Positions 1,330-7,415 of a DNA stretch of 64,000 bases are shown here, piece by piece; position 1 is the first letter of the stretch, and each line of letters begins with the position of its first letter. Source of the stretch: Hericium rajendrae. Its lineage: Eukaryota; Basidiomycota; Agaricomycetes; Russulales; Hericiaceae. Position numbers and translations under genes: made by a program. Where the stretch lies: assembly GCA_033439255.1 (NCBI GenBank), contig CM065881.1, positions 1,488,001 through 1,552,000 on the forward strand, given 5' to 3'. The notes below the pieces were generated by a model. That model did not search any database. It was not told where the DNA came from and was given only the letters and a program-made list of their open reading frames with translations.

Positions 1330-1981
1330 TCGCGGCGCATGATGTAGTTGCAGCTTAGGGTGATATGGGTAATTGAGCCTCCCTTTGTTAATCCATATCA
1401 TCTCATTTCTTCATGACCTTGTAGCCTGCAACAACTAATATGCAAGTGTCGACTGTGTGCACTCTGAGTGTGGGAAAGGTGTGTTACAACAGGGCTATGC
1501 CACTGGAGCAGAAATGCAGAGTCGCAGTGCCTGGTTCCTGGTCTGCACTCCATACAGTTTTACATTGAATGGACTACAACGGAGAGGCCTTTTTGATAGC
1601 TTGTTGCAGAGGCTTGACAAGGATGATATGATGCTACTCTGTTATTAAATCAGCATCTTTGCAGACAATGTTGCCACCTCTACTATAATTCATCCGAAAT
1701 GCACTGGCAATGATGAGGACCCATGACATTTCACAAATCCATATGCAGGCATGGTTGGTTGTAAAACAAGCCAAAAGGCCCATGACTCAGTTATAATATG
1801 CAGAAGGAATGTTCATTATTCTGTTATCCTGTCTCTACAACATTTTGATGAAATAAGGCAATTGATTGTCACAAATTCTGTGACATATATATGTGACTGT
1901 GACAGCTTCGAAAAGCAGCTGGGGGTTTGATGTTCAAAGTAACCTTTGCTACCAACTTCTTCTTCCTCTCCATTTATTTTC
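1330..1981. other. Intergenic, entering the CpG-poor block
   Basis: This stretch holds the VMS1 3' flank and the presumed promoter of the zinc-finger gene. CpG becomes rare from about 1440 onward. A 12-nt palindrome, ACATATATATGT, lies at 1883-1894, about 90 nt before the next start codon. No convincing gene is seen. Confidence 0.6.
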
Positions 1982-3490
1982 ATGGCTTCAATTACAGTGA
2001 AGCTGACTCAAGAAACAGTCATTGATATATCTCAGTCAACTCTGATACCTCTGAAATGCACTTGGAAGCAATGCTCAGTCATTCTGAATAGCTGGTCGAT
2101 GCTTCAAAAGGTATAAAATTCTCCGAAAAAGTGTTATTTTAAATGCTGATTATATTTAATCATTACTTTTCACAGCATCAACATCTTCATTGCCTCAATC
2201 AAAGATTGCATCACAGGCAATTTAAATGCCGAATCACACCATGCAGTAGCCAGCATCATAGTTCTAGAGCTGCACTAGTTGAACATGTGAATACATGTCA
2301 TCTTGTTCAGATTTCTTTGCCTTGTCCTCTTAAAGGTTGACTCTATTCTCAGACCAAGATATGAATACTTGCTTATCTATTGTTTCTTAGATTGTTCAGA
2401 TTCCGTTGCTCCTTCTGCCTCTTTCATTGCTCATTTCAAGATGAAGCACCATCATCTTCTTGATCAGCCATGCATTCCATTTAACATTATGAAAGATTAT
2501 CACTCTCAACCATATCTTCACACTCCTCAGCATCCTCCATCACCAACTCTTTTATCAGAGAGATTACTATCTCATCATATGCTCCATTCAGTGGTGAAGC
2601 TTCCACCTATCAGAATGGTAGCAAGAACTAGCAATTCTCCATCCATTCAAAAGGAGCAATGGTCATCTTTTGGCTCAGAATCAACAGAGGATGAAGACGT
2701 CATAGAATTTGCAGATCTACCAGCTTCAGAATCCTCATCCCTTTATCATGATTGGAAGAGCTGTAAACAAAATAGCAATCTGCATTGCACACAGGACCTG
2801 CTTGTTCAGCCAAAGCCTGTACCATTGGAAGGCTTTTCAGCACCACAGCCAATCATTGGCCAGCATGTCTCTGAAGAAGGCCCTCCTCTCAGCATGGGCT
2901 ATCAGGTTTTCTCTCTTCGAGTTCAGGAGCTGGAGGAACAGGATATTCTTGCCACTAAAGGGCATCAGAAGAACTGATTTTTTGTTGTAGGTTATCTTTA
3001 TATACTCTAGCTAGCAGAGCTAACATTGCTTTGTGCAGGAAGGTCCTGCTATGAACTGCTTTCTTGATATCTCCTGCATTTTTCTGTAATTGTTGATACC
3101 ATTTGCTTTCTTCACACTTTGATCATGCTTTGATCACATCACATACTGAGCTTGTTAGTTTCATCCAACATCAGATTCTGTTTCATGATGTCCAATCTCA
3201 TATCTTCATAGATTCAAGCTTTGCACATATCTGTATCTGATATGTTACAATCAGTACTCTTGCATGATTGTTACATGCTAAGACTCTGAAAGCACCACAT
3301 CTCATCCAGTTTGCACAATCAGCCAGAATAATATCAATATAAAGCACAGAAGCTCAAACTGTCCATTGCAAAATGCAAGCACAAGGGAGTCAAAGCATAG
3401 CCTCTTTTAATCAGAATCAAGCCACTTCACTTGCAATGAGCATCACAGAAAGTGATTTACAATAGGGATATAAGGATACATCTTTCTCGG
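1440..3490. other. CpG-depleted, AT-richer block
   Basis: Over these roughly 2 kb most 60-base lines contain zero or one CpG, whereas flanking coding lines (for example 901-960) contain about nine. TpG and CpA words are abundant. The change is sharp on the right, near 3480-3510, where CpG returns with the SET gene. The block carries an intact spliced gene at 1982-2977, so it is not simply a dead transposon. Its base composition suggests long-term cytosine methylation with deamination, or foreign origin. Confidence 0.85.
1982..2977 (+). CDS. Three-finger C2H2 zinc-finger protein
   Basis: Predicted 291-residue protein from exons 1982-2110, 2176-2335 and 2391-2977. The introns (65 and 55 nt) have GT/CAG and GT/TAG ends, and total length is in frame. 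Splicing creates three C2H2 fingers that no single ORF shows: Cys26, Cys31, His44, His48 (C-x4-C-x12-H-x3-H); Cys61, Cys66, His80, His85 (x13 spacer); and Cys93, Cys98, His111, His116 (C-x4-C-x12-H-x4-H). Fingers 1 and 3 are assembled across introns. The remaining 170 residues are rich in Ser, Pro, His and Gln with an acidic patch (STEDEDVIEFADL), as in a transcription regulator. The whole gene has only about six CpG dinucleotides, unlike every neighbour. The start is the ATG before ASITVKL. The family is not recognised more precisely; nuclear DNA binding is inferred from the fingers. Confidence 0.75.
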
Positions 3491-3507
3491 CAAGACAAAC
3501 AGTCACA
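2978..3507. other. Convergent 3' flanks, CpG-poor
   Basis: This is the region between the convergent ends of the zinc-finger gene and the SET gene. It remains AT-rich and almost free of CpG to about 3480. I see no further gene. Confidence 0.6.
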
Positions 3508-4376
3508 TCAGTATGCAATTGGGCGACAGCCGCAGACATTTGCACCACCCGCATAGCCCACGCCACACGATTCACAATCTCTAGTGGCCTTAGCTGTCAG
3601 GTTCTGTGGTGCAGGGTGCACCGAGGCTCCAGACTTTGCTAAGGGCGAAGCATCTCGCTGCTTGACCGCGTCAACGATCCAGGGACTGACGAAGCCGCGC
3701 GCTGTAAGCTCGTCGAGCTTGAGGAACGCCGCACCCTGCACTTTTCCGAGGCACGACTGACGAAGACAGCTTAGCATTAGAGCATCCGGCAAAGACAAAC
3801 GGGTAACTTACTAGAGTGCCGCACGTACAGTCAAATGGCTGGTCCATATGCCATTCCGTGCTCGGGTAGAAGAACGTCACTGCGAGTCGGGGCACAGCCG
3901 TCAGACGCGGCGCAGAAAGCACAGGGAGGGATGTGGAGACTTACGCGGCTCTCCGGAGCGAATGGGCTTCAGAGCACGGGCGTGCCACTGTGTGCGGTCG
4001 GGCGAGGACAGGTCGAACGCGACGTTGGGCTCACAGGAGTGGTTTACTGGGCGCTCGACTCAGACGCAAGCTTGGGTATCGAGGAATGAGCACGGCGCAC
4101 CATATACGAGGTCCGAGTTGAGCTCGATGTGGTCCTCAGGACCGGGCCCGCACTGCACGGTTGTGTATGATCTCGGGCTCGCTGTCAGGCCCTCGAGGCG
4201 CGCGATGGTCTCGCCCGCTCTGAAGTCCTGTGTTCGTGTTAGGAGCCGTGCGCACTGAAAGTACGAGAAGTACGGACCTTCTGAGCAATGCATGCGGAGG
4301 AGAACGCACCCGGTTTGAACGCTACGGCGAACAGTCCGGGGTGGGACGGGGTGTAGGATTCCTGGGCGGGCTTCAT
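3508..4376 (-). CDS. Small SET-domain protein
   Basis: Predicted 214-residue stand-alone SET-domain protein, probably a protein lysine methyltransferase of the short fungal type. Exons on the minus strand are 4278-4376, 4101-4227, 3945-4046, 3812-3879 and 3508-3756, and the sum is in frame. The diagnostic VNHSCEPN motif (SAM- and substrate-binding NHSCxPN) is restored across the third exon junction. It is followed by LTFFYPSTEWHM and a post-SET cysteine pair (FDCTCGTLSCLG). A second cysteine cluster lies at the very C terminus (CESCGVGYAGG, then CGCRP), which could bind zinc. There is no pre-SET region and no accessory domain. The substrate is unknown. The start is the ATG giving MKPAQESYTPSHPGL. 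Confidence 0.83.
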
Positions 4377-4736
4377 GAGATGCACGGTTCGGCAAGTCAG
4401 GCTGCGGTGCGTTCAACGGGGTGTTCGTACATGGTCCGTCAAATACTGAAAATCAGGGCACTCGTGATTTCCGCGAGTAAGACGGGCCGTGAGCGCGACG
4501 TCCGGCTTGAACACGGTCATCGAGCTCGAGCTCATCGATTAGCAGGCCAGGTCGCGGGAGCGCGCGGGGTCGCGTCGAGCCAAGCCAAGCGCGTCGCGAC
4601 CCGCGTGACCCCGAGCGGACGAAATCGGAGCTGGAACTTTACCCAGCTGCACGGAACACGCCGAAACTCTAATTCGCCCATCGACGGATACCGACCGACG
4701 CTGCGCGAAAGTCTTCACGCCACTCCTCAAGACCTC

Positions 4737-4759
4737 CGCCGCCGCCGCCGCCGCCGCCC
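4737..4759. repeat. (GCC)n microsatellite in RPL30 leader
   Basis: Uninterrupted GCC trinucleotide run about 25-48 nt upstream of the RPL30 start codon, so probably transcribed as part of the 5' leader. Confidence 0.8.
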
Positions 4760-4784
4760 TACCCACCCGCCTACCCACGACGCA

Positions 4785-5274
4785 ATGGCCCCCACGAAGA
4801 AGTCCAAGGCGGCGAAGTCGACCGAGTCGATCTCGGCGCGCCTCGCGCTCGTCGTCAAGTCGGGCAAATACAGCCTCGGCTACAAGAGCGCGCTGAAGCA
4901 GATGCGCAACGGCAAAGGTGCGTGCGCCTGCCCTTCTGCTCGGGGCTGGAGCGCAGGCTGAGAAGGCCCCTTGCTGACGTGCGTATGTTATGTGTGTGCT
5001 GCAGCCAAGCTCATCCTCATCGCGGGCAACTGCCCCCCGCTGCGCAAGTCGGAGATCGAGTACTACGCCATGCTGTCGAAGACGACCGTGCACCACTTTG
5101 CGGGCACGAACGTCTCGCTCGGCACTGCTGCTGGAAAGCTCTTCCGCGTTGGGTGCGTGTTGCTGTTTGTTCTGGTGGAATATATGCTGAGATGTGCTTG
5201 ATTTTAGTGTTATGACTATCACCGACCCGGGTGACAGTGACCTGCTCGCCGTGGCCGAGGGCCAGGCTGCATAA
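4785..5274 (+). CDS. RPL30: 60S ribosomal protein L30 (eL30)
   Basis: Ribosomal protein eL30 of the large cytosolic subunit. Exons are 4785-4917, 5005-5152 and 5208-5274, giving 115 residues, the normal family length. Diagnostic segments are [38 protein letters not shown] and [13 protein letters not shown]. The start follows a CGCA-ATG context just after a GCC-repeat leader. In yeast eL30 autoregulates splicing of its own first intron; the first intron here is 87 nt, longer than most introns in the window, but I see no proven eL30-binding kink-turn. Confidence 0.97.
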
Positions 5275-5642
5275 AAGGCTTAGCTTAAGTCAGGGAGCGG
5301 ATGCTTGTATGCTATATGTTGCTGGCTTTATGACATAGGTACCCCCATGATTTTTTTTGGCCTATCCTGGTTCCGTGTGCGGAGAAGCAAGCTGCAATTT
5401 GGAAACTCAGTACTCGGCCTTGCATGGTATGAACAGGAATATACTCTCTGGTAGCGATGACAATCTGCCGATATTGGTACGTTCATCGACGAAGAGACAC
5501 ATGGACGCTTCCTTTGTGCTCTGCGAGAGACAACATAACCGCCGGGGCACTGCCCGCTCCGAGAATAGTTTGCAGGTTGATACACCATTACATAAATAAC
5601 ATTGCGAGACAACAAGAATACAAACTGCACAGTGATCTAAAG
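5275..5642. other. Convergent 3' flanks
   Basis: Region between the convergent RPL30 and actin-related protein genes. It holds only presumed UTR and terminator sequence; no gene is seen. Confidence 0.5.
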
Positions 5643-7415
5643 CTATAAGAGACACGGTGACATCTCGAGCACGGTTTTTGGCCCATGCTCGGTGTAGTCT
5701 GCCTTGGACGCAAAATTTTTCGCGTTTGGATCGTGGAATGTGATCTACACGGAATGTCAGCATCCGTAACTGTCACCGAAAGCGAGAGACTGACTTTGGC
5801 AACGATACATGAGCCCAAGAACGCCGCAAGCCCATCGCCTTTCTCGCGAAACTCTGCAAAGTACTCAGGGACTTTGATGATGCGGATCTGGCGTGGCTGG
5901 ACGTCGGTCTGTTGGTCGGGGTTACTGAGAATGTATGGTGAGAGGCGCGACTGGAGTGCGGGGCCAATGCCTACAAACAGAGATGAGCGAAGCCCTTGAT
6001 AACCCAATGCGACGGAACACACCTTTCACAGAACCAGTAATGTCGCCCGTGACAAACAGTCCCATCCAGATATACTGCCTCTGATCGACCTCCGTCTGCC
6101 CGACTGCATGCCCCGCCGCATCATGCAGCGGCATGACCAGCCCGTCTTTCGACCGCCTCTCGACCTCCTCCGCACCCATCAAGGACGGGTCGAACAGCGG
6201 CTCACAGAAGCGATGGCGTTCCTTCCCCAGCGTGACCTCCTTCCCGCGGAACTGCAGAGTAACAAGGTCGAGTGCCTCGATCTCCCTCGCGCGCGCCTGC
6301 TCCGCCGCGCTCGCCTTGGCCGTGGCGCGCTTCTTCATCCCGTTCTCGATGACGGCTTTCTCCTTCCCGGCGACGAGCACCGCCGCGATGTCCGTGACGC
6401 CCTCGTCCTCGGGCGGCGGTGCAGCCTCGCCGGATGAGGGCACCTTGACGAGGCCGTCGCGCCACGCCTGCCGCGCGAGTGCGCGGAGCGCGTCGTCCAG
6501 CGCGGGCGCGTCGAGCGGGGCGTCAGGTGGAGAGAGCGTGGACATGACGGAGGTGTTGGACCGCAGGAGCTGGGCGAGGTAGCGCTCGCAGTCGGCGGTG
6601 CCGACAAGGGTGGTGGTGCGCGCTAGGTTGAGGGGCACGCCGTCGTAGACGGGCGTGATGTCTGTGTGGGACTCGTGGATGTCGACAACGACGCCACTAA
6701 GCGCGTTCGCGGCGTAGAGCTGCGCGACGGTGCGGTCGAGGACGCTGAAGGCGGCAACGTTGAAGCGCTCGAAGAAGATCTGGCAGATGCGCTCGTGGGC
6801 GTCGCGCGAGAGGCCCGGATAGATGCAGAGGAGGACGGGGTTTTCGAATTGGACGCGCCGGAGTTGGAGGGCGGTGAAGAGGACGTATTTCCTGCGCGTG
6901 GTCGGTGGACGGGAGACGGGCGGGCGGGGGAGGGACATACCATAGGGCTTCAGCCTGGGTCCAGTCGCGGACTTCACCATGTGCGAAGGGCCAGAAGACT
7001 GTGATGTCCTGTCCGGCTTCAAGGGCCTCGTCGAGCTGTCTTCCGACGAGATAATCGGTGAGTCTGGGTGCGGATGCCGAGTGAGCTTGGGGCATGGCAG
7101 AAGCAGCTCTGCTGGTAGAGGCGGATGGCTGCACATCTAGGCCTTCACCAAGCCTAAAAAGCGGCCTTGCACTCGCAGGAGTCGCATTGCCGTTGGTTGC
7201 TTGAGAGTCGGCACCGAGAAGGCTGGTTCTTACGCCGACTCGCGCAGGGATTTCCTGAGAACGAGATGAGCATAGTGCATCAAGGGCTGGAATTATGAGA
7301 CACATACGACGGTGGGTGCGCGTAAAAGGTCATTTAGACCGAGACCAGCGCGGATAAAGTCGGTGGTAGTCTCGAGGATGAGGATGCTCGAGTCGCGAAA
7401 GGCCAAGCTGCTCAT
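5643..7415 (-). CDS. Actin-related protein, Arp9-like
   Basis: Predicted 522-residue divergent actin-fold protein, likely a nuclear ARP subunit of the SWI/SNF and RSC remodellers (Arp7/Arp9 class). Exons are 7308-7415, 6941-7254, 6023-6891, 5795-5970 and 5643-5744, in frame. The N terminus (FRDSSILILETTTDFIRAGLG) corresponds to the actin phosphate-1 loop but lacks the canonical Gly-rich nucleotide motif. VVVDIHESHTDITPVYDGVP is the actin phosphate-2 region, and SVLDRTVAQLYAANA the connecting segment. A Ser/Ala-rich insert follows the first strand (about residues 45-90), and a Lys/Ala/Glu-rich insert lies near the middle. The C terminus reads FHDPNAKNFASKADYTEHG, close to the end of nuclear ARPs. 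An in-frame ATG at 7476-7478 would add 21 residues; the inner ATG fits the family better. Confidence 0.75.

Follow-up and report, generated by a model that had tools for sequence, protein, structure and literature searches.

What history leaves a stretch of fungal DNA almost without CpG dinucleotides and yet with an intact gene inside it? Such a loss is what long-lasting DNA methylation typically leaves behind, and the window considered here (the whole 64 kb stretch of DNA that was analysed, G000:C4:1488001-1552000) contains a block of about 2.15 kb that is nearly devoid of CpG and encodes a complete protein with three finger-like units.

Extent and composition of the CpG desert

A two-state score placed the limits of the desert at 1337-3523. 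Over 1337..3487, CpG O/E is 0.13 and GC content 0.40, compared with a CpG O/E of 1.09 in the remaining window; TpG (1.40) and CpA (1.63) stand above their values outside the desert (1.07 and 1.06), and TpA is not raised (0.61 vs 0.69). When 500-base bins were used, CpG O/E was 0.06-0.25 in the four bins covering 1501-3500 and 0.74-1.45 in all others. A sequence-only reading of this DNA had described a CpG-poor block at 1440-3490, with about six CpGs in its gene and CpG-rich neighbours, and that description holds: there are 11 CpGs in 1441-3486 (0.54 per 100 bases, where the window has 8.6) and six in the gene span, 1982-2977.

Upstream, the last dense CpG lies at 1336, a few bases beyond a frame that stops at 1329 and whose ankyrin match is weak and below the cut-off. 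Downstream, the next CpGs are at 3488 and 3524, and the desert edge falls just short of minus-strand frames ending near 3508, three of which gave no Pfam match. The noncoding parts of the desert (1337..1981 on the 5′ side and 2978..3487 on the 3′ side, with no CpG between 2918 and 3488) yielded no second genome copy and, in the frames tried, no Pfam match over the cut-off. Noncoding and coding desert have similar figures for CpG (0.15 and 0.13), TpG (1.47 and 1.28) and CpA (1.60 and 1.65), so both have been affected alike; CpG depletion joined to TpG and CpA excess in coding and noncoding DNA is the pattern by which CpG-methylated chromatin would be recognised.

No second desert was found, at the score used, in the 64 kb window or in 9.9 kb upstream of it (L008), and a search of the genome (46.8 Mb, 19 contigs) with the DNA of the block, which strongly decayed or lost copies would escape, turned up nothing beyond the block itself. 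A transposable element within the desert was considered and rejected: neither the genome copy search nor a comparison of five flank frames with Pfam (no match over the cut-off) produced a recognised element that would explain why the block was targeted.

The zinc-finger gene and its paralogue

The gene lies on the plus strand. Exon 1 (1982..2110), which is shared with the paralogue described below, provides the start codon and C26, W28 and C31 of finger 1; exon 2 (2176..2335) provides H44 and H48 of finger 1, all four ligands of finger 2 (C61, C66, H80, H85) and C93 of finger 3; and exon 3 (2391..2977) provides C98, H111 and H116 of finger 3, a poorly conserved middle, the C-terminal motif SMGYxxFSLRVxELE and a TGA stop. 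Both introns run GT...AG: intron 1 (2111..2175) is in phase 0 at the position of paralogue intron 1, and intron 2 (2336..2390) is in phase 1 at the position of paralogue intron 3. The spliced frame of three exons gives 291 aa without an internal stop, which upholds the earlier proposal of three C2H2 fingers assembled over two introns and continued in an open last exon.

C2H2 fingers contain two Cys and two His each, in the order C-x2-4-C-x12-16-H-x3-5-H. Those of the window protein read C-x4-C-x12-H-x3-H, C-x4-C-x13-H-x4-H and C-x4-C-x12-H-x4-H, so that ligand order is kept in all three. A Pfam search of the protein returned 0 families at E up to 10, including no curated model of zf-C2H2 type, and our claim is therefore one of finger-like anatomy, not of Pfam membership. 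Matches in PDB were weak (AEBP2, E 0.039; ZAP1, E 0.071; FZF1, E 0.03). The closest known fingers are C2H2 fingers of the Gli/ZIC/Zap1/AEBP2 type, which those of the window protein resemble in C-x4-C spacing, a CxWxxC first finger and ligand order, but from which the window protein differs in its lack of a Pfam match, in linkers unlike the usual short ones and in a C-terminal motif that was not recognised. The protein is probably a nuclear DNA-binding regulator; it would enter the nucleus and bind DNA there, and its gene would be expressed at some stage.

The sequence-only reading had held that a genuine gene should have homologues with conserved Cys and His positions, and one is present on the minus strand of contig C6 (matches spanning 2057050-2058064; spliced product 301 aa). 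This paralogue is full-length and diverged, with 36% identity to the window protein, and all 12/12 zinc ligands, W28 and SMGYxxFSLRVxELE are invariant in the pair. Both window splice junctions are common to the two genes; the paralogue has one extra intron, and its finger 3 is longer by two residues. Its coding sequence has a normal CpG O/E of 0.96. Across the finger region of the pair pN is 0.38 and pS 0.80 (saturated), a contrast between two sequences that may mostly predate the CpG loss or stem from the paralogue branch. The two genes look like old paralogues of a fungal family, and since the CpG-normal copy shares ligands, intron positions and C-terminal motif, the window gene looks like a member of that family mutated in place. 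About 330 bases past the paralogue's stop, an inverted repeat (L007:3488-3657, G000:C6; 61-base arms, 90% complementary, 48 bases between them) overlaps a CpG-poor 250-base bin (O/E 0.23); it is perhaps a small transposon.

CpG loss reaches deep into the coding sequence. With codons drawn at the frequencies seen in the paralogue and in the upstream frame, the same protein would be expected to contain 42 +/- 5 CpGs (minimum 28 in 2000 draws), and five are observed; across codon borders there are two, against 7.1 predicted from the gene's own codons (1.1% of 2000 reshuffles). Among NCN codons, 1/76 ends in G in the window gene and 23/76 in the paralogue. At codon positions 2|3, the synonymous outcome was not significantly preferred (Fisher p=0.31).

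The protein has changed as well: it has 8 Arg to the paralogue's 21, 23 His to 10 and 23 Gln to 18. At the 16 positions where a paralogue Arg is aligned with a different residue, that residue is Gln or His in eight (BLOSUM62 expects 1.8, p=1.3e-4); in the reverse direction, 1/5 differing window Arg faces Gln or His. Just four of the eight Arg-to-Gln/His positions carry a CGN codon in the paralogue, which we count against our preferred explanation, set out below. Random complete CpG decay of the paralogue's coding sequence, simulated from the paralogue and not from the true ancestor, introduced a mean of 2.5 stops and 34 changed residues over 20,000 runs and left the frame free of stops, as the window gene is, in 3.2% of them. 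An open frame of at least 228 codons occurred in 2/3000 order-1 random deserts, a result that we set against our preferred explanation.

CpG-biased mutation and deserts elsewhere in the genome

Retrotransposon copies offer a view of mutation in this genome. We examined 30 RVT_1 loci (L015-L044) among 150 scored matches; they include many near-identical copies, with open frames up to over 1000 aa. CpG O/E is 0.83-0.84 for two copies that do not differ over 1486 bases and 0.50-0.52 for a pair at 94%, with exceptions such as L020 (0.69 at 99%), and over 29 copies it falls with divergence from L043 (rho -0.63). Among 27 copies at <10% divergence, the two most diverged having been left out of the pool, CpG transitions account for 919 of the 1821 differences counted against one copy, although CpG sites contain 17.7% of C. 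These differences are not independent, because the copies share history, but their number indicates that a CpG-biased mutation process acts in the genome. That process is not purely CpG-directed, since the most diverged pair (L015/L016) shows 41 CpA beside 44 CpG transitions among 125 differences.

Matches to Plavaka and DUF6535, together with short introns, suggest that the genome is that of an agaricomycete. We also surveyed 120 kb of it in 28 stretches at predetermined positions (eight of 5 kb and 20 of 4 kb) and found deserts in five, amounting to 11.8 of 120 kb or about 10% of bases, some of them running off the stretch. Those of L048 (continued in L075) and L049 hold no open frame over 78 aa; that of L068 holds a 387-aa frame that opens with a 36-residue match to a Plavaka transposon; and that of L054 holds two frames (132 and 115 aa), neither with a match above the cut-off. 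The fifth, L062, is continued in L074 and contains a 500-aa frame with DUF6535 (E 8.6e-46) followed by a 309-aa frame. At L074:1087-3460 (G000:C4:3303087-3305460) the DUF6535 frame begins in CpG-normal DNA and enters the desert, where GC falls to about 25% per 250 bases, with the edge near L074:1240, inside the DUF6535 match. With deserts this common, and with one of the five sampled loci crossing a long frame that belongs to a known protein family, the view that the window locus is in an unusual state has to be toned down.

Origin of the desert

We give a probability of roughly 0.6 to the explanation that the locus has long been CpG-methylated, or otherwise targeted, and has lost its CpGs while selection kept its protein. 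Most likely it would have lain in CpG-methylated silent chromatin, with methylation of the DNMT1 type; deamination of 5-methylcytosine would bring about long-running, CpG-directed C-to-T mutation, and selection would remove the changes that break the protein. The CpG loss with TpG and CpA gain itself is seen throughout the block, in its introns and flanks as well, and the genome contains methyltransferase-like genes, with five PF00145 matches at four places. We infer both the agent, methylation, and the action of selection during the CpG loss. The block would thus have been cleared by the same kind of CpG-biased process as erodes the retrotransposons, and methylation and deamination under selection would be the simplest account.

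An unlikely rival is a RIP-like burst, in which a short-lived duplication of the locus led to CpG mutation of both copies within a few sexual cycles and one copy was later lost. RIP of the Neurospora type targets duplicated DNA and has a CpA-to-TpA bias that raises TpA. TpA is not raised in the window desert, but in five other zones poor in CpG it is 0.75-0.84 and so exceeds the 0.69 of the window outside the desert, which together with the CpA transitions in the one old retrotransposon pair and the CpG-biased ones throughout speaks for such a process. RIP-like CpG-biased mutation has been reported in Ganoderma sinense (PMC4457147), and in Rhizoctonia solani AG8 genes are reported to be among the targets of a CpG-biased hypermutation (PMC4014442). 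A burst would nevertheless leave no time for selection, and stop-free outcomes are rare in simulated full decay; the genome search, which would miss strongly decayed or lost copies, showed the block only once, and the paralogue, far too diverged and not depleted, is no candidate for one.

A decayed relic, whose frame stays open by chance or because silencing is recent, is likewise improbable. Deserts are often decayed DNA, as the lack of long frames in L048/L075 and L049 and the transposon piece in L068 indicate, and to that extent the sampled deserts favour a relic; against it stand 291 stop-free codons, splice positions shared with the paralogue, and the retention of every ligand and of the C-terminal motif. 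The coding sequence is, moreover, depleted as deeply as the noncoding part, so the frame itself went through the CpG-loss process.

The other origin raised by the sequence-only reading, acquisition from a CpG-poor genome, whether by horizontal transfer or by introgression, is very unlikely: sharp edges against CpG-rich neighbours and a codon use unlike the paralogue's would suit it, but the same genome holds a paralogue with shared introns, the TpG and CpA excess is that expected from in-place CpG decay, a desert edge inside DUF6535 is not explained by acquisition, and a search confined to viral contigs (with the paralogue alone) and prokaryote genomes (with the pair) found no relative and led us to reject a prokaryotic or viral origin. 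The CpG-normal paralogue with its shared introns, the CpG-biased mutation of retrotransposons and the DUF6535 edge thus favour that reading's alternative, a methylated host gene kept by selection, with methylation as its inferred part.

Known systems match this case in part. In Ganoderma sinense methylation was measured, 98.7% of methylated cytosines lie in CpG and transposable elements are more methylated than genes (PMC4457147). The CpG-methylated, RIP-like mutated transposon DNA of that species (PMC4457147) resembles our case in CpG-biased loss, low GC, methyltransferase-like genes and CpG decay of transposable elements, but the window block is single-copy as far as found, contains no recognised transposable element, carries an intact conserved gene and is the sole desert found in 74 kb. 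Rhizoctonia solani AG8 shares CpG-to-TpG mutation within protein-coding genes of an agaricomycete; there it takes the form of scattered heterozygous SNPs between nuclei, unlike the near-complete, sharply bounded clearance seen here in an assembly (PMC4014442). In a limited literature search, which is no proof of absence, this was the one report of intact CpG-depleted fungal genes to come up. According to a review, fungi have for the most part lost gene-body methylation, possibly because deamination is a burden on coding sequence (PMC13297926); a conserved gene that loses nearly all its CpGs yet keeps its protein would allow that burden to be measured. If our explanation is true, low CpG in intact genes (e.g. 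O/E below 0.3) would offer a cheap genome-wide mark of a long methylation history.

A broader proposal is more tentative, and we think it rather doubtful: that certain host genes, among them the zinc-finger gene and a DNMT1-like gene, form a class kept under regulatory CpG methylation over evolutionary time, their proteins remodelled (Arg lost, Gln and His gained) but functional. If true, this would be a fungal counterpart of the persistent gene methylation that reviews call largely lost in fungi. One of the four places with a PF00145 match, L073, is DNMT1-like by its PDB matches and has a BAH match below its cut-off; the locus (L073:3020-4302, G000:C12:757520-758802, minus strand) is CpG-poor in part of its catalytic region, so the gene that encodes the methylation enzyme may itself be a target. 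Its intactness was judged by eye from motifs, and no rate can be derived from it, because it lies outside the 28-stretch sample and was chosen through the methyltransferase search. CpG O/E is 0.30 over L073:3020-4100, against 1.08 in 1-2700 with 4301-6000. Frame by frame, it is 0.12 at 3356-3616, 0.0 at 3684-3986 and 0.5 at 3913-4302, reaches 0.75 at 3173-3352, a frame that also matches the methylase model, and is normal (1.07) in the frame with the weak BAH match.
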